Shown: one piece after another, positions 4,602 to 57,991 of the stretch | How positions within the stretch are numbered: the first letter of the stretch is position 1 | Layout: each line of letters opens with the position of its first letter | Source of the DNA: Actinophytocola gossypii | GTDB lineage: Bacteria > Actinomycetota > Actinomycetes > Mycobacteriales > Pseudonocardiaceae | Assembly: GCF_025165815.1 (NCBI RefSeq) | Contig: NZ_JAFFZE010000006.1 | Span: 372,001 to 436,000 of the forward strand | Reading direction: 5' to 3' | DNA length: 64,000 bases | The notes under the pieces: generated by a model | The model's database searches: none | What the model was told of the DNA's origin: nothing | Seen by the model: only the letters and a program-made list of their open reading frames with translations | Made by a program: the position numbers and the translations under genes

Positions 4602-6008
4602 ATGGTGACCGAGAACACAGCTCAGACCGGGGAGAACCAGCCGGCGCTCAAGCGGGTCATGGGGCCGAGACTGCTGTTCTTCTTCGTCATCGGTGACATC
4701 CTTGGCACCGGCATCTACGCGCTGACCGGCAGTGTCGCCGGCAGAGTCGGCGGCGCGCTCTGGCTGCCCTTCCTGATCGCGTTCCTCGTCGCGTTCCTCA
4801 CCGCGTTCGCCTACCTCGAACTGGTCGGCAAGTACCCGCGCGCGGCCGGCGCCGCCCTCTACACCAACCGCGCGTTCCGCAAACCGTTCCTGACCTTCAT
4901 CGTCGCGTTCGCGGTGATGTGCTCCGGCATCACCTCCGCCTCCGCGGCGGCGCGCGCGTTCGGCGCCACCTACCTCCCGGAGGCGTTCGACATCGAGGTC
5001 TCCGGCACCGTCATCGCGATCGTGGCCGTGCTGTTCGTGCTGCTCCTGGCCGGGATCAACTTCATCGGCGTCGCCCACTCGGTGAAGACCAACGTCGTGC
5101 TCACCTGCGTCGAGCTCGCCGGGCTCGCGATCATCATCGGCGTCGGGATCTACGCGGTCGCCGGCGGGCAGGGCGAACCCGGCCGACTCGTCGAGATCAA
5201 CACCGCGGACACCAACTGGCTGCTCGCGGTCACCGCCGCCTCCTCGCTCGCGTTCTTCGCGATGGTCGGGTTCGAGGACTCGGTGAACATGGCCGAGGAG
5301 ACCAGGGACCCGAACCGCACGTTCCCCAAGGCGCTGCTGTCCGGCATGGCGGTCGCGGCGCTGATCTACGTGCTGGTCGCGCTCACCTCGTCGCTGCTGA
5401 TCGCCGCCGACGACCTGGCCGCCGCCGAGTCCGGCGCGCTGCTCGAGGTGATCGGCGTCGGCGCGCCCGACTTCCCCCGGTGGATCTTCGAGTGGATCGG
5501 CATGTTCGCCGTGGTCAACTCGGCGCTGATCAACATGCTGATGGCCAGCCGCCTGCTCTACGGCATGGCCAACGAGCGGATCCTGCCCAAGGTGTTCGGC
5601 ACCGTGCACCCGTTCCGCCGCACGCCGTGGGTGTCGATCCTGGTCACCAGCGCCATCGCCGCCGTGCTGGTCGCCACCGCGGGCGAGGACGGGGTGAGCA
5701 AGCTCGGTGGCACCACCGCGCTGCTGCTGCTGTGCGTGTTCCTCGTGGTCAACATCTCGGTGCTGGTGCTGCGCCGGGAGAGCGTCGAGCACCCGCACTT
5801 CCGCGCGCCCACCTGGGCGCCGATCACCGCGGGAATCCTGTGCGGGTACCTGGCGGTCCCGTGGCTGTCCGGGCGGCCGGCGAGCGACTACTACATCGCG
5901 CTGGTCCTGATCGCGCTCGGCATGCTGCTGTGGGTGGTCAACTGGCTCTACCTGCGCGGTCGTGGCGAGCGGGTCACCGAGTTCGACCCGCAGGCGCTCA
6001 ACGACTGA
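4602..6008 (+). CDS. APC-superfamily amino acid permease
   Basis: 468 residues with about 12 membrane segments. The first segment carries the APC signature GDILGTGIYALTG, which contacts the substrate backbone in AdiC/LeuT-fold transporters. The helix-6 region FFAMVGFEDSVNMAEE, including the acidic loop, is typical of APC permeases. It likely imports or exchanges an amino acid or amine across the plasma membrane. ATG 4602 is preferred, with an in-frame ATG at 4590 as an alternative; neither has a strong ribosome site. The C-terminus is a short cytosolic tail. The substrate is unknown. Confidence 0.85.
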   Translation: MVTENTAQTGENQPALKRVMGPRLLFFFVIGDILGTGIYALTGSVAGRVGGALWLPFLIAFLVAFLTAFAYLELVGKYPRAAGAALYTNRAFRKPFLTFIVAFAVMCSGITSASAAARAFGATYLPEAFDIEVSGTVIAIVAVLFVLLLAGINFIGVAHSVKTNVVLTCVELAGLAIIIGVGIYAVAGGQGEPGRLVEINTADTNWLLAVTAASSLAFFAMVGFEDSVNMAEETRDPNRTFPKALLSGMAVAALIYVLVALTSSLLIAADDLAAAESGALLEVIGVGAPDFPRWIFEWIGMFAVVNSALINMLMASRLLYGMANERILPKVFGTVHPFRRTPWVSILVTSAIAAVLVATAGEDGVSKLGGTTALLLLCVFLVVNISVLVLRRESVEHPHFRAPTWAPITAGILCGYLAVPWLSGRPASDYYIALVLIALGMLLWVVNWLYLRGRGERVTEFDPQALND

Positions 6009-6030: not shown

Positions 6031-6942
6031 ATGGGACCTACCGGACAGCAACTGGAGATCGGGCACGGCGACGCGCGGGCCGTCGTCACGACGGTCGGCG
6101 CGGCGCTGCGTGCCCTCACCGTGGCGGGCGTGCCGTACGCGGAGACCTACGGGGCCGACGAGACGCCGCCGCTCGGGGCCGGCGCGGTGCTCGTGCCGTG
6201 GCCGAACCGGGTCGGCGGCGGCACCTGGTCGCACGCCGGGGTCACCCAGCAGTTGGAGGTCACCGAGCCGGCCAGGGGCAACGCGATCCACGGGCTGGTG
6301 CGGCGCGAGGAGTGGACGGTCGTCCGGCACGGGGAGTCGGCCGTCACCCTGGAGGTGGAGATCGACCCTCGGCAGGGCTGGCCGTTCCCGTTCCGCACGG
6401 GGATCGGCTACGCGCTCGACGAGCGCGGCCTGACCGTCACCCACACGATGCACAACCTGGGCGACCAGGAACTGCCGTTCGGCGTCGGCACCCACCCCTA
6501 CCCCCGGCCGGGTGACACCGACGTGGACGACTGCGAGCTGACGCTCGCCGCGTCGACCGTGCTGCCGGTGGACGCCGAGACGATGGTGCCGGTCGGCAAG
6601 CCGCTGTCGGTCGAGGGGACCGACCTGGACTTCCGCTCCGGCCGCCCGCTGCGCGAGGTGGAGCTGGACACCGCGTTCGGCGGCTGCGAGCCGGGCGAGG
6701 ACGGGCTCGTGCACCACACGGTCACCCGGGACGGCCGCGGCGTCGAGGTGTGGGCCGAGCCGGTGTTCTCCTGGGTACAGGTGTTCACCCCGGCCGAGTT
6801 CCCCGGCAAGGGCGCCCGCGCGGTCGCCGTCGAGCCGATGACCTGCCCGCCGGACGCGCTGAACTCCGGCACCGACCTGATCGTGCTAGCGCCGGGGGAG
6901 ACCTGGAGCGGCCGGTGGGGGATCCGCCCGCTCGTCGGGTAG
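6031..6942 (+). CDS. Aldose 1-epimerase (mutarotase) family protein
   Basis: 303 residues with the galactose-mutarotase-like beta-supersandwich fold. Recognisable elements are the substrate arginine in PWPNRVGGG (Arg60), His87 in NAIHGL, His155 in GTHPY and the catalytic glutamate in VAVEPMTC (Glu268). These match the aldose 1-epimerase active site that interconverts alpha and beta sugar anomers. It begins 22 bases after the permease stop, so the two may share a transcript. The family also includes glucose-6-phosphate 1-epimerases, so the exact sugar is uncertain. Confidence 0.87.
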   Translation: MGPTGQQLEIGHGDARAVVTTVGAALRALTVAGVPYAETYGADETPPLGAGAVLVPWPNRVGGGTWSHAGVTQQLEVTEPARGNAIHGLVRREEWTVVRHGESAVTLEVEIDPRQGWPFPFRTGIGYALDERGLTVTHTMHNLGDQELPFGVGTHPYPRPGDTDVDDCELTLAASTVLPVDAETMVPVGKPLSVEGTDLDFRSGRPLREVELDTAFGGCEPGEDGLVHHTVTRDGRGVEVWAEPVFSWVQVFTPAEFPGKGARAVAVEPMTCPPDALNSGTDLIVLAPGETWSGRWGIRPLVG

Positions 6943-6956
6943 TAGGTTGCGTGGTC

Positions 6957-8168
6957 GTGAGTACAGCTGTCACTGGTGGATATGTCGTTCCGGTCGACGG
7001 GGACCCGATCGAGGGCGGGACCGTGCTGATCGACGGCGGGCGGATCGTCGCGGTCGGCGCCGAGGCCGATGTGGACGTTCCGGACGACGCGGAGATCGTG
7101 GACGCGTCGGGCACGTGGGTGCTGCCCGGGTTGGTCGAGTCGCACGGACACGTCGGCGTGGCCGAGGAGGGCGACGGCTGGGCGGGCATCGACGTCAACG
7201 AGATGACCGACCCGAACGGTGCCCGCCTGCGCGCGCTCGACGGCATCAACCCCGACGACGAGGGCTTCCGCGACGCGCTGTCCGGCGGGGTGACGACCGT
7301 CGTGGTCAAGCCGGGCTCGGGCAACCCGATCGGCGGTCGGACCGTCGCGGTCAAGTCGTGGGGCCGGACCGTCGAGGACATGCTGGTGCGCGAGCCGACC
7401 AGTGTGAAGAGCGCGCTGGGGGAGAACCCCAAGCGGATCTACGGCGACCAGAAGAAGCTGCCGTCGACCCGTCTCGGGGTGGCCGCGGTGATCCGCGACG
7501 CGTTCACCAAGGCGCAGGACTACCGCGAGGCGCGGGAGTGGGCGATTCGCGAGGGCAAGCCGTTCGAGCGGGACAACACGTCCGAGATCCTGGTGCGCGT
7601 GCTCGACGGCGAGGTGCCGTGGTGCCAGCACAGCCACCGCGCCGACGACATCGCGACCGCGATCCGGCTGGCCGATGAGTTCGGGTACCGGCTGATCGTC
7701 AACCACGGCACCGACGGGCACCTGCTCGCGGACACATTGGCGGACAAGGACATCCCGGTGATCATCGGACCGCTGATCATCGGCCGGTCCAAGGTGGAGG
7801 TTCGCCGCCGGTCGATGCGGAACCCGGGGATCCTGGCCAGGGCGGGCGTGCGGATCGCCCTGACCACGGATCACCCGGTGGTGCCGATCGACTATCTGGT
7901 GCACCAGGCCACGTTCGCGGTCAAGGAGGGCCTCGACTCGGACACGGCGCTGCGGTCGATCACGGTGAACCCGGCCCGGATCATGGGGCTGGACGACCGG
8001 GTGGGCGCGCTGAAGCCGGGCCTGGACGCCGACATCGTGCTGTGGTCGGGCGATCCGCTGGACGTGATGAGCCGCGCGGTGCGGGTGTTCGTCGACGGCC
8101 GCGAGGTCTACCACTTCGACGAGACCACCGGCCTCGGCGTCACCGCGAACCCGTTCTACCGGGAGTAG
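6957..8168 (+). CDS. Amidohydrolase (imidazolonepropionase-like, COG1228)
   Basis: 403 residues. The N-terminal beta-sandwich strand (GGTVLIDGGRIVAVG) leads to the metal-binding ESHGHVG (His63 and His65), and later metal-ligand candidates are HSHRAD, NHGTDG and TDHPVV. The C-terminus closes with the usual LKPGLDADIVLWSGDPLD segment. These are metal-dependent amidohydrolases acting on cyclic amides or similar bonds. GTG 6957 is preferred over GTG 6951; the ribosome site is weak for both. The last 13 bases overlap the convergent NmrA-type gene. The natural substrate is not evident. Confidence 0.85.
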   Translation: MSTAVTGGYVVPVDGDPIEGGTVLIDGGRIVAVGAEADVDVPDDAEIVDASGTWVLPGLVESHGHVGVAEEGDGWAGIDVNEMTDPNGARLRALDGINPDDEGFRDALSGGVTTVVVKPGSGNPIGGRTVAVKSWGRTVEDMLVREPTSVKSALGENPKRIYGDQKKLPSTRLGVAAVIRDAFTKAQDYREAREWAIREGKPFERDNTSEILVRVLDGEVPWCQHSHRADDIATAIRLADEFGYRLIVNHGTDGHLLADTLADKDIPVIIGPLIIGRSKVEVRRRSMRNPGILARAGVRIALTTDHPVVPIDYLVHQATFAVKEGLDSDTALRSITVNPARIMGLDDRVGALKPGLDADIVLWSGDPLDVMSRAVRVFVDGREVYHFDETTGLGVTANPFYRE

Positions 8169-54653: not shown

Positions 54654-55504
54654 CAGGTGTCGCGGTCGGTGGTGGGGGCGCTGGCGGCGGCGCGGGCCTC
54701 GTAGTCGGCGCGGGCCGCGCGCTCGGGGGCGTTGAGGACCTGATCGCCCTTGAACACGCGCAGCACCCACTCGGCGGCGGGACGGGGGAGCAGGCGGGTG
54801 AGCTTGTTGACCGGGCCGAGCGAGGCGGGTACGTAGATCTCGAACCGGGGCCTGCGCAGCGCGCCGACGATGGCCGTGGCGACGTCGGCGGCCTCGACCG
54901 CCTTGACGAACCGGGCGTCCTGCAGCCCCGCGGCGAGCTCCGTGCGCACCACGGACGGCAGCACGACGGTCACCTCGATGCCGCTACCCCGCAACTCGCC
55001 CCGGACGGCCTCGGACAGTCCGACGACGCCGTGCTTGGTGGCGCAGTACGTTGCCCCGCCGGGAAACCCGGCCTTCCCGGCGACGGACGCGATGTTGACG
55101 ATGTGCCCGGCGCCGCGCGGCCGCATCCGCCTGATCGCCTCGCGGGTGCCGTGGATGACCCCGTGCAGGTTGATCTCCAGCTGCCGCGTGGTCGACCGGT
55201 CGGACTCGTCCTCGAACGGCCCGAGCGCCATGATCCCCGCGTTGTTGACCACCACGTCGATCGGCCCCAGCCGCCCCTCCACTTCCTCGAGGAACTTCGT
55301 GAACCCGGCCAGGTCGGTGACATCCAACGGAAACGCCGTGGCCCCGATGCGCCGCGCCGTCTCCTCCGCGACGGCCAGGTCGAGATCCCCGATCGCGACC
55401 TCCGCCCCGTGCCGCACCAGCGCCTCGGCGGTCGCGGCCCCGATCCCCCGACCCCCTCCGGTGATGACCACGACCTTCCCGGCGAGCGAACGGGGTTGAG
55501 CCAT
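54653..55504 (-). CDS. Short-chain dehydrogenase/reductase
   Basis: 283 residues. The cofactor motif TGGGRGIGAATAEAL (about 15-29), NNAG, the catalytic serine in NIASVAG and YCATK with Tyr and Lys are intact. The C-terminal extension (about 225-283, PRFEIYVPASLGPVNKLTRLLP) is typical of the actinobacterial SDRs linked with fatty or steroid alcohol metabolism. ATG 55504 has GGGAGG 6 bases upstream. It leads an operon with the aldehyde dehydrogenase, and a perfect palindrome lies 26 bases upstream. Confidence 0.88.
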   Translation of the reverse strand: MAQPRSLAGKVVVITGGGRGIGAATAEALVRHGAEVAIGDLDLAVAEETARRIGATAFPLDVTDLAGFTKFLEEVEGRLGPIDVVVNNAGIMALGPFEDESDRSTTRQLEINLHGVIHGTREAIRRMRPRGAGHIVNIASVAGKAGFPGGATYCATKHGVVGLSEAVRGELRGSGIEVTVVLPSVVRTELAAGLQDARFVKAVEAADVATAIVGALRRPRFEIYVPASLGPVNKLTRLLPRPAAEWVLRVFKGDQVLNAPERAARADYEARAAASAPTTDRDT

Positions 55505-55529
55505 CCCGGGCCTCCCAGCGTAGGCAACA

Positions 55530-55549
55530 TACATTCCGGCAGGAATGTA
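55530..55549. promoter_or_regulatory. 20-bp palindrome upstream of the SDR/ALDH operon
   Basis: TACATTCC-GGCA-GGAATGTA is a perfect 8-base-arm inverted repeat 26 bases before the SDR start, typical in size and symmetry for a TetR-type operator. No regulator gene is adjacent, so it must be encoded elsewhere. Confidence 0.55.
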
Positions 55550-55590
55550 AACCGAGCATCCCAGCCCCGCTATCCGCTGGCAAGCACATC

Positions 55591-55678
55591 CGCGAGTCGT
55601 ACGTTCCCGTCGCGCGAGTCGTACGTTCCCGTCGCGCGAGTCGTACCTTCCCGTCGCGCGAGTCGTACGTTCCCATCG
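55591..55678. repeat. Tandem array of four 22-bp repeats (left side)
   Basis: Four consecutive 22-base units of CGCGAGTCGTACGTTCCCGT plus CG, with one substitution in unit 3 (ACC for ACG) and one in unit 4 (CAT for CGT), then a partial fifth. There are no spacers, so it is not a CRISPR. Three units of the same repeat occur in inverted orientation at 56688-56753, flanking the gene between. Confidence 0.9.
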
Positions 55679-55777
55679 CGCAAGTCCCGGGTGCTCAGTT
55701 ATCCACAACAGGGCGAGTTGTCCACAGCTCGGCTCCGTGCGCCTCCGAAGTGCGTTTTCGGCGGGCAAAGTCGGTGC

Positions 55778-56677
55778 ATGCAGGAATTCCCATCCGGTCT
55801 ACACGGTGCCCACCGACGCGCTGACCTGGTCCGACACCTCGGCGAGCGAAGCGTGCGGCTGGCACTGCGCGAGGGAGAACTCGTCGCCATCGGTCGTCAG
55901 GTACTGGTCGAGCGGGCCCACCAGTTGGACCTCCGCACTCGCGCTGCCGCCGCGTTACTCGTCGCCGGCGACGGCGCTGCCATCACCACCCACACCGCGG
56001 CGCTCCTGTTCGGTTGTACGGCGGCCGAAGCCGGCGAGATCCACGTGCTGGTTGGTTACGCGCGGCAGGTCCACCGCACCCCGAGCATGGTCTTTCACCA
56101 GGGCCTGCTGGACGAACAGGACGTGGTGGACCTCGATGGGCTCCGGGTCCACGCCTTGGAGCCCGCGATCGCCGACCTGTTGTGCCGCGCCCGTCGACGC
56201 ACCGCTCTGGCCTGCATGGACCAGGCGCTCGCGCTGACTCCGCGCTTCGAGCGGGCGGAGTTCCGGGCCGAGGTTCTGCACCGGATCCTCACCCGTCGGG
56301 ACCCTCGTGGGCGACGTCGCGGCGAGATCCTGCTGCTGTTGGCCAGTGGGCTCGCGGAGTCTCCGGCGGAGAGCTGGATGCTGCTCGGGTTCTTCGATTT
56401 CGGGTTGCCGATTCCCGCGCAGCAGCTGCCGGTCCTGGATTTGGACGGTCACGAGCGCTACCGGCTGGACTTCGCATGGGAGGAGGCGCGGGTGGCGGTC
56501 GAGTACGACGGCTACTCCGCTCACGTCGATCGAGCGGCTGCCGACTCGCTCCGGCAGGCCGACCTCGAGCGGCGCGGATGGACCGTCCTACGAGCCAACG
56601 CGGAGGATCTGCGTGATCCCTCACGTCTGCACGCGGCAGTGCATGCCGCGCTGGTGCGCCGGAGATTCGCGGCGTAG
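55778..56677 (+). CDS. AbiEi-like winged-helix protein with DUF559/Vsr-like endonuclease domain
   Basis: 299 residues. The N-terminal part (HRRADLVRHLGERSVRLALREGELVAIGRQVLV, read as two pieces) resembles the AbiEi antitoxin winged helix. The C-terminus, about 205-299, has a restriction-like fold with RYRLDFAWEEARVAVEYDGYSAH and VLRANAEDL, as in DUF559 proteins. Actinomycetes carry many such solitary proteins, annotated as endonuclease-domain or AbiEi antitoxin-like. No toxin gene adjoins it. It is enclosed by inverted 22-bp repeat arrays, which may mark it as a transferred unit. Start ATG 55778 has a moderate upstream site. Confidence 0.72.
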   Translation: MQEFPSGLHGAHRRADLVRHLGERSVRLALREGELVAIGRQVLVERAHQLDLRTRAAAALLVAGDGAAITTHTAALLFGCTAAEAGEIHVLVGYARQVHRTPSMVFHQGLLDEQDVVDLDGLRVHALEPAIADLLCRARRRTALACMDQALALTPRFERAEFRAEVLHRILTRRDPRGRRRGEILLLLASGLAESPAESWMLLGFFDFGLPIPAQQLPVLDLDGHERYRLDFAWEEARVAVEYDGYSAHVDRAAADSLRQADLERRGWTVLRANAEDLRDPSRLHAAVHAALVRRRFAA

Positions 56678-56896
56678 CGGTCGGGACGTACGGGAGCGTA
56701 CGACTCGCGCGACGGGAACGTACGACTCGCGGGACGGGAAGGTACGACTCGCGAGGAGGTCGGTGGTGAGGCGGTCGGCGTCGCGGTCGGGGATGTCGGT
56801 GCTGCCGGTGAGGCGGGGGGCGGGGTGGCGGTGGTGGTTGCGTTCGAGGGCGTAGACGAGGAGGGCGATGACCAGGGCGGTGACGAGAAGTTCCAT
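56621..56896 (-). CDS. Small single-helix membrane protein with repeat-derived C-terminus
   Basis: 91 residues. It starts with a hydrophobic helix (ELLVTALVIALLVYALERN) followed by a polar segment with excellent C-ending codons as far as DLLAS (about residue 50). From there the frame runs through the inverted 22-bp repeat array (ASRTFPSRESYVPVARV) and stops only inside the opposite gene. The original end has most likely been replaced by the repeat insertion. No ribosome site is obvious. No family recognised. Confidence 0.5.
   Translation of the reverse strand: MELLVTALVIALLVYALERNHHRHPAPRLTGSTDIPDRDADRLTTDLLASRTFPSRESYVPVARVVRSRTSRPLRRESPAHQRGMHCRVQT
56688..56753. repeat. Tandem array of three 22-bp repeats, inverted (right side)
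   Basis: Units CGACGGGAACGTACGACTCG plus CG are the reverse complement of the left array at 55591-55678. The middle unit (56710-56731) is exact and the outer two have a few substitutions. Together with the left array they form a long inverted repeat around the AbiEi/DUF559 gene. Confidence 0.88.
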
Positions 56897-56923
56897 GGCG
56901 TTAAGTTTGCGCTCGGTGTGATC

Positions 56924-56939
56924 CTGCCACTAGTGGCAG
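56924..56939. promoter_or_regulatory. 16-bp perfect palindrome upstream of the GlxA-type regulator
   Basis: CTGCCACTAGTGGCAG is fully self-complementary and a further half-site (CTGCCAA) occurs at 56963-56969. It lies between the small membrane gene and the regulator start at 56984, so autoregulation by the AraC/GlxA protein or control of both genes is likely. Confidence 0.5.
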
Positions 56940-56983
56940 AAAGGACCTTGTGCGTCGATATTCTGCCAACGTAGGGTCGGGGT

Positions 56984-57991
56984 GTGTTGGAGACCGTGGC
57001 CGTGGTGCTGATGGACGACGTCACACCGTTCGAGTTCGGCGTGCTGTGCGAGGTGTTCGGGATCGACCGCACCGAGGACGGCGTGCCGCGGGTCGACTTC
57101 CTCGTCTGCGGGGAGGAGCCGGGGATGCCGCTGCGGACCAGTGTCGGCGCGCGGCTCACCCCCGAGTACGGGCTCGACGCCGTCGCCCGCGCCGACCTCG
57201 TCGCGGTGACCGGCGTGAAACTGCGCGACGAGGACCAGTACCCGGTCGCCGTGCTCGAGGTGCTGCGGGCGGCCGTCGCCCGCGGGGCCACCGTGCTGTC
57301 GGTGTGCAGTGGCGCGTTCGTGCTCGGCGCGGCCGGGCTGCTCGACGGCCGGCGGTGCACCACCCACTGGCGATATGTCGACCAACTCGCCGAGCGCCAC
57401 CCCGACGCGCTGCTCGACCCGGACGTCCTGTTCGTCGACGACGGCAACGTGATCACCAGCGCCGGCACCGCCGCCGGCATCGACGCGTGCCTGCACCTGG
57501 TCCGCCGCGAGCAGGGCTCCGCCGCGGCCAACGCGATCGCGCGCCGCATGGTCGTGCCGCCCCAGCGCGACGGCGGCCAGCGCCAGTACATCGAGCTCCC
57601 GATCCCCGAGTGCACCGCCGACAGCCTCTCCCCGGTGCTCGCCTGGATGCTCGACAACCTCGCCATCGACCACACCGTCGCCGCGCTCGCCGGCCGGGCG
57701 CGGATGTCCGAGCGCACGTTCGCCCGCCGGTTCGTCGCCGAGACCGGGACCACGCCGCACCGCTGGCTGACCATGCAACGCGTCCTGCACGCGCGCCGCC
57801 TGCTCGAGGACACCCGGCTGCCGGTCGAGGACATCGCCGCGCGCTGCGGGTTCGGCTCGGCGGCGTTGCTGCGGCACCATTTCAACCGCGTCGTCGGCGT
57901 CGCGCCGAAGGACTACCGCCGCACGTTCGGCGCCGTCCACTCCGGACCGGAACTCGAGCGGTCGTCGAGCGGCGCCCAGCAGAATCGGTGA
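56984..57991 (+). CDS. GlxA-family regulator (DJ-1/PfpI-like domain plus AraC helix-turn-helix)
   Basis: 335 residues. The N-terminal class I amidotransferase-like domain (about 1-190) has TVLSVCSGAFVLGAAGLLDG with a cysteine at the nucleophile position. The C-terminal AraC domain (about 230-325) contains MSERTFARRF and FGSAALLRHHFNRVVGVAP, the two helix-turn-helix motifs. GlxA-type proteins usually activate amine, choline or aldehyde metabolism genes. Start GTG 56984. The downstream gene is a small SnoaL-like protein 86 bases away. Its effector is unknown. Confidence 0.88.
   Translation: MLETVAVVLMDDVTPFEFGVLCEVFGIDRTEDGVPRVDFLVCGEEPGMPLRTSVGARLTPEYGLDAVARADLVAVTGVKLRDEDQYPVAVLEVLRAAVARGATVLSVCSGAFVLGAAGLLDGRRCTTHWRYVDQLAERHPDALLDPDVLFVDDGNVITSAGTAAGIDACLHLVRREQGSAAANAIARRMVVPPQRDGGQRQYIELPIPECTADSLSPVLAWMLDNLAIDHTVAALAGRARMSERTFARRFVAETGTTPHRWLTMQRVLHARRLLEDTRLPVEDIAARCGFGSAALLRHHFNRVVGVAPKDYRRTFGAVHSGPELERSSSGAQQNR

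Follow-up and report, generated by a model that had tools for sequence, protein, structure and literature searches.

Inverted arrays of a 21–22 bp repeat around an AbiEi-like/DUF559 nuclease gene in Pseudonocardiaceae: a probable REPIN/RAYT-like system on an unrelated enzyme

The window analysed here, a stretch of 64,000 nucleotides from Actinophytocola gossypii, harbors a gene for a putative nuclease, P0001, which is enclosed by two tandem arrays of the same repeat lying in opposite orientations. The features of this locus are the following:

55591..55686, + strand: upstream array, orientation F, four 22-bp units with the core CGCGAGTCGTACGTTC and a partial fifth
55679..55694, + strand: innermost upstream unit, degenerate, inward of the last full unit by one period
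55778..56677, + strand: P0001, a 299-aa protein, AbiEi-like in its N-terminal part and carrying a DUF559 nuclease domain
56690..56753, - strand: downstream array, orientation R, three units inverted

Both the sequence and Tandem Repeats Finder (TRF) bear out the four direct units of 22 bp each at 55591–55678 that a preliminary description of the locus had reported, TRF delimiting 55591–55686 with 4.4 copies, 94% matches and a score of 171. For the downstream array (2.9 copies, score 107), the number and orientation of the three reverse-complement units were given correctly, but they start at 56690 and not at 56688. The units are contiguous, as had also been described, and the arms of 64 nt are complementary at 94% and separated by 1035 nt. 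The palindrome CGTACG, which had been attributed to every unit, is present in five of the seven and is not conserved in the arrays of the congener G132 at both corresponding places, so that it is not an essential feature of the repeat. The innermost unit reads CAAGTC at this locus, most relatives having a GAGTT form. Allowing up to three mismatches, the 16-mer core occurs at seven places in the window, all of them array units, against a mean of 1.94 places in dinucleotide shuffles, one of 100 of which reached seven; the tandem order of the units lies outside this statistic. No Rfam family matches positions 55000–57200 up to an E value of 1. A small ORF of 91 aa with a hydrophobic start and no Pfam match (56621–56896, - strand) continues across the downstream array, so that part of its C-terminal half would be encoded by array units.

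The C-terminal part of P0001 matches the DUF559 family (PF04480) with 35.7 bits, above the Pfam cut-off of 20.6, which is also exceeded by four of its homologs. Six polar residues of this domain (D231, E242, D244, H249, D256 and R259) are invariant among 18 aligned homologs, which speaks for P0001 being an enzyme. Compared by sequence with solved structures, the domain yields weak matches, the best being the endonuclease-like 3hrl (E 0.087), and another the mobile intron protein 3r3p (E 0.091); this weakness counts against the explanation favored below. In PADLOC, the N-terminal part gives an AbiEi-like match with a best E value of 2.4e-8. The genome contains a single P0001-like gene at E ≤ 0.001. 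Carriage by a plasmid or phage was rejected, since the plasmid search gave one weak partial match covering 26% of the query and the phage search gave none.

The repeat is not confined to this species. Contigs of Amycolatopsis suaedae, Saccharothrix yanglingensis and Lentzea sp. NBRC 105346 carry exact tandems of the core (29 stretches), and a looser tandem pattern is found in 41 of 297 genomes of the family, from 13 of its 46 genera, the reversed control giving one match in each of three genomes. The preferred unit variant differs among the array-bearing genomes listed. A common GAGTC...GACTC hairpin was rejected as the basis of the arrays, being rare (11 of the 297 genomes).

When P0001 was searched in 24 of these 41 array-bearing genomes, every one was found to encode one or two close homologs (E ≤ 2.4e-65). 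The four array-free congeners, on which the presence/absence link rests, have no close homolog: three of them hold matches of 26–32% identity with E values no better than 2e-11, and the fourth has no match. Flanks were analysed for 30 of the 39 matches, namely 28 close homologs and two remote ones. With GAGTC clusters and TRF taken together, arrays of 20–23 bp units lie upstream of all 28 close homologs and on both sides of 26, while the remote homologs have no flanking arrays. The GAGTC motif alone finds fewer, with arrays at 23 of the 30 loci and on both sides at 20, since the units at some genes are quite unlike this motif. At the two remaining loci (L149 and L166), the repeat finder detects an array upstream only, which counts against the explanation favored below. 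In 27 of the 28 loci, the match between the upstream flank and the reverse complement of the downstream flank beats all 200 mononucleotide shuffles, L166 failing this strict test (p ≤ 0.015); the inverted match also exceeds the direct one in 27 of the 28, the exception being L164, where the direct match scores higher. The neighboring AraC-type gene P0003 served as a control at 30 loci of the same 24 genomes. There, the GAGTC motif finds arrays at three loci, two of which are neighbors of P0001 homologs, and TRF alone finds some 20–23 bp tandem at ten, but neither finds arrays on both sides at any. The bracketing is thus not due to chance. That the repeat flanks genes of this family, a check suggested in the preliminary description, holds for the close homologs upstream, on both sides in nearly all of them and with a significant inverted match in 27 of 28; the contrary outcome that it had named, a repeat scattered over the genome with no link to the gene, is not what is seen, the repeat being both genome-wide and linked.

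At 13 of these loci (L147, L148, L150–L159 and L162, from 12 genomes of one genus plus Lentzea), the nuclease gene lies between the same two neighbors, of which the upstream one presumably encodes an EspG-like protein. This shared neighborhood suggests long vertical inheritance of the nuclease gene, which sits elsewhere in the window genome and in G132. In several relatives, array units supply the stop codon of the gene preceding the array and also the final codons of the nuclease gene itself.

Beyond the locus, the repeat is dispersed over the genome of A. gossypii (7.38 Mb in 53 contigs), in which the 16-mer core with at most one mismatch occurs at 227 places, and its reversed control at none. 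A BLAST search with three units gave at least 77 matches, 40 of 72 candidates being scored, and the clusters described here are a large sample from the matches listed, comprising 58 clusters, or 57 when a wider joining gap is used. In these sampled clusters, a distance of 22 bp separates neighboring units of the same direction in 176 of 177 pairs; the spacing is 21 bp at all 19 R-to-F junctions and 19 bp at 10 of 15 F-to-R junctions. The 6-nt spacer between the 16-nt cores also varies little, the commonest base being found in 41–56 of 56 clusters at each position, in a comparison where the cores, but not the spacers, had been selected by their likeness to the consensus. These are not CRISPR arrays, as the 22-bp units are contiguous and no unique spacers separate them. 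In one cluster (L078, ~4995–5040), a long stretch of G and then of C comes after a single unit and may be an artefact of assembly.

The dispersed arrays have a preference for the 3' ends of genes. According to a simple, unvalidated gene caller, 28 of the 57 sampled clusters lie in convergent gaps, 18 in codirectional gaps, five in divergent gaps and six inside called ORFs; convergent gene pairs therefore make up 28 of 51 array-bearing gaps, compared to 58 of 460 other adjacent pairs (Fisher 3e-11). Among these 51 clusters outside called genes, 33 have a gene 3' end within 10 nt, whereas a 5' end is that close in two of the 23 having a flanking 5' end. The first unit, when directed forward from the gene, begins 1–5 nt past the stop codon in 24 of the 31 clusters ends of this kind, and when directed backward, its distance is more scattered (39 cases). 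Arrays running in both directions are found in 21 of 28 convergent gaps and in 6 of 23 other gaps (p 0.0007), 27 of 51 in all; the 24 running in one direction count against the preferred explanation. The clusters inside ORFs (L071, L076, L080, L092, L111 and L119) may be extensions of genes or errors of the caller, given that a 22-bp array can stay open over 66 bp. The preliminary description had considered the two arrays as a terminator pair. Many dispersed arrays indeed occupy terminator positions, but a plain terminator pair was rejected, since it leaves the link with the gene unexplained.

The units also go with their own gene. Over 28 loci, similarity between arrays correlates with similarity between the encoded proteins (rho 0.54, Mantel p 0.0002), and the correlation persists (rho 0.37) when the 331 pairs with less than 70% protein identity are taken by themselves. 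This co-divergence fits P0001 as a predicted binder of its array units, a role suggested in the preliminary description for the encoded winged-helix protein. In 11 genomes, dispersed units among the matches listed, compared at the four positions left free by the search pattern, are closer to the gene-side units of their own genome than to those of other genomes (0.67 versus 0.53, permutation p 0.0002). In this comparison, the own gene takes first place in five of the 11 and second to fifth in four; in G291 and G295 it ranks ninth and tenth, a result that speaks against the favored explanation. Four genomes (G132, G208, G081 and G253) have two close homologs each, with units that differ between the two, and in the tree each homolog has a nearest relative other than its partner. 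The second homolog of G132 (L129, contig 48) is bracketed by arrays of a 21-bp unit at 6766–7040 and 8058–8120, and a dispersed 21-bp array of that genome (L130, ~2125–2430) matches the units of this homolog with a score of 83 (shuffles ≤33) and those of the first homolog with a score of 20. Two other genomes (G256 and G197) count against the favored explanation, as they contain GAGTC-type arrays yet the sole close homolog found has another kind of unit beside it; no partner gene was found for their GAGTC-type arrays.

Gene-less elements with an F...R arrangement resemble, in their sequence, the gene locus minus the gene. At the 16 gene loci where both runs are recognised, the innermost unit reads GA[AG]TT instead of GAGTC at 20 of 32 ends. 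In 11 gene-less F...R elements of other genomes, the same holds for 10 of the 22 ends, and among ordinary units for 3 of 65 (Fisher 9e-10 for the gene loci and 3e-5 for the gene-less elements). The count rests on a GAGTTC template tried at three offsets, of which the best was kept, a procedure somewhat favorable to the result, and the window locus itself, which has no GA[AG]TT inner unit, weighs against the preferred reading.

Comparison of related genomes indicates that array positions last while the units stay alike within a genome, as sites are shared and units are genome-specific. G132, which is syntenic around the window (nucleotide identity 75–82%), carries arrays of its own unit at both places of the window arrays. 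At two further array sites of A. gossypii, G132 has a different 21-bp array at one and a plain hairpin at the other, and array-free congeners have other sequence there, with a hairpin in one case. Conversely, one array of G132 corresponds to a gene end in the window without an array. In two pairs of sister species (96.0% and 90.4% identity), all five gene-less sites compared are shared with differing numbers of units, and arrays are also found at the nuclease gene's own flanks. No new insertion between sister species is seen at these five sites, which counts against the explanation preferred here. Among the sites compared, none was an exact empty match, free of arrays, to a recently inserted copy, as insertion sequences or MITEs would leave. 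The proposals of the preliminary description are supported in part; a link with mobility, one of them, fits the dispersed copies, but the gene is limited to one or two close copies in a genome, and nearby arrays keep their place between sister species. In the array-free G110, neither the P0001 gene nor its neighbors were found in the 1.2 of 9.36 Mb looked at. Two single sites show other kinds of change. The flanks of one A. gossypii site (L117, 5044–5144) lie in opposite orientations and several kb apart in the array-free G094 and G115 (L137 and L138), as if there were a rearrangement breakpoint at the site, and G066 (L135, ~2880–2950) has tandem 14-bp copies that include a gene end and its stop codon in the place of an A. 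gossypii array.

Several known systems share some of these traits. Mycobacterial interspersed repeats (MIRU) and BIMEs are tandem units at stop codons whose copy number varies among relatives, and the arrays described here are similar in both respects. They differ in that each family of arrays goes with its own nuclease gene, that both orientations occur and that the junction spacing is fixed. P0001 resembles the Vsr-like/DUF559 nucleases, which include homing-type mobile intron endonucleases, in its DUF559 match, but no intron or intein is involved here, and the arrays that bracket the gene occur dispersed as well.

REPIN/RAYT is the closest known system in behavior. In published accounts of it, one vertically kept enzyme gene is associated with each repeat family and adjoined by its cognate repeats, a genome may harbor several distinct enzyme–repeat pairs, and gene-less inverted copies lie outside genes (PMC3116915, PMC8049555). 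The few enzyme copies with cognate repeats beside them, the distinct pairs and the dispersed gene-less inverted copies are all paralleled in the present system. The differences from REPIN/RAYT (TnpA-REP) are that the enzyme is AbiEi-like/DUF559 and not a Y1 transposase, that the unit is a 21–22 bp tandem and not, as judged by inspection, a hairpin-forming palindrome, and that arrays in one direction also occur. Membership of the RAYT/REP family was rejected, as the Y1 (HUH) transposase family PF01797 is absent from the genome of A. gossypii; it is also absent from G132, and is present in three of 17 genomes with arrays and in one of 15 without.

The explanation that is probably correct is that gene and arrays form one system like REPIN/RAYT but built on an unrelated enzyme, with predicted recognition and copying of the units. 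The proposed model is that the AbiEi-like N-terminal part, of the winged-helix type, would recognise the 21–22 bp unit, and that the DUF559 domain would nick or cut at bound units. Repair templated by another array would then copy units, and this copying could expand arrays, homogenise the units within a genome and now and then seed a new site. Cognate gene-less arrays, either one-directional or as F...R pairs, would in this way become dispersed mainly at gene 3' ends, where sites just past stop codons would be tolerated and might in part act as terminators. Recognition, cutting and repair from other arrays would together account for array expansion, for the genome-specific uniformity of units at old positions and for the specificity of each family. 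Binding, cutting and copying, and any benefit to the host, are inferred from these patterns.

The main rival, rather unlikely as a full account although it may hold alongside copying, places the arrays in host regulation or architecture. The protein would bind 3'-end arrays as a roadblock, insulator or termination factor, the arrays flanking its own gene would serve autoregulation, the likeness of units would come from selection for protein specificity, and nuclease activity would be secondary or absent. The enrichment in convergent gaps, the excess of two-directional arrays there, the tight spacing of forward first units from stop codons and the plain hairpins of relatives at one orthologous site all argue for such a role. 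By itself, it leaves unexplained the inverted array downstream of the gene, the innermost unit common to gene-less elements and the uniformity of the 6-nt spacer, and the invariant nuclease residues suggest an active enzyme.

It is improbable that the system serves defense or is toxin-like, the nuclease acting on foreign DNA or on the cell with the arrays as restraining decoys or a sink. AbiEi profiles, which represent the antitoxin of the abortive-infection system AbiE, match the N-terminal part of P0001 (fused here, unlike in AbiE, to a nuclease domain), and the other domain belongs to a nuclease family; but no AbiEii toxin gene was found by Pfam among the neighbors in the window, which encode an SDR dehydrogenase and an AraC/DJ-1 regulator. 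The plasmid and phage searches also speak against defense, and it would not explain the spread of arrays to gene ends. That a dispersed terminator-like repeat merely happens to fall on both sides of the gene is plausible from this genome alone, where the repeat is common and the gene occurs once, but is ruled out to near certainty by the homolog flanks and the control, since bracketing with different units recurs in 24 genomes and at none of the 30 control loci.

The literature search, to which most subscription journals were inaccessible so that it is no proof of novelty, found no description of such a system among the titles and abstract openings listed, no paper containing any of four 13-letter unit variants, and none joining DUF559, Actinobacteria and tandem repeats. 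The chances appear evenly balanced that this is an undescribed class in Pseudonocardiaceae-type actinomycetes, in which a largely vertically inherited AbiEi-like/DUF559 protein would spread its own 21–22 bp arrays at gene 3' ends by cut-and-repair, independently of the HUH-based REPIN/RAYT, with specificity residing in a diverging DNA-binding domain. If so, the REPIN/RAYT way of life would have evolved more than once, and on quite a different nuclease, and one group of DUF559 proteins would acquire a testable function. The rewriting of gene ends by arrays in many actinomycetes would also find an explanation, and natural protein–unit pairs would become available for deciphering a recognition code.
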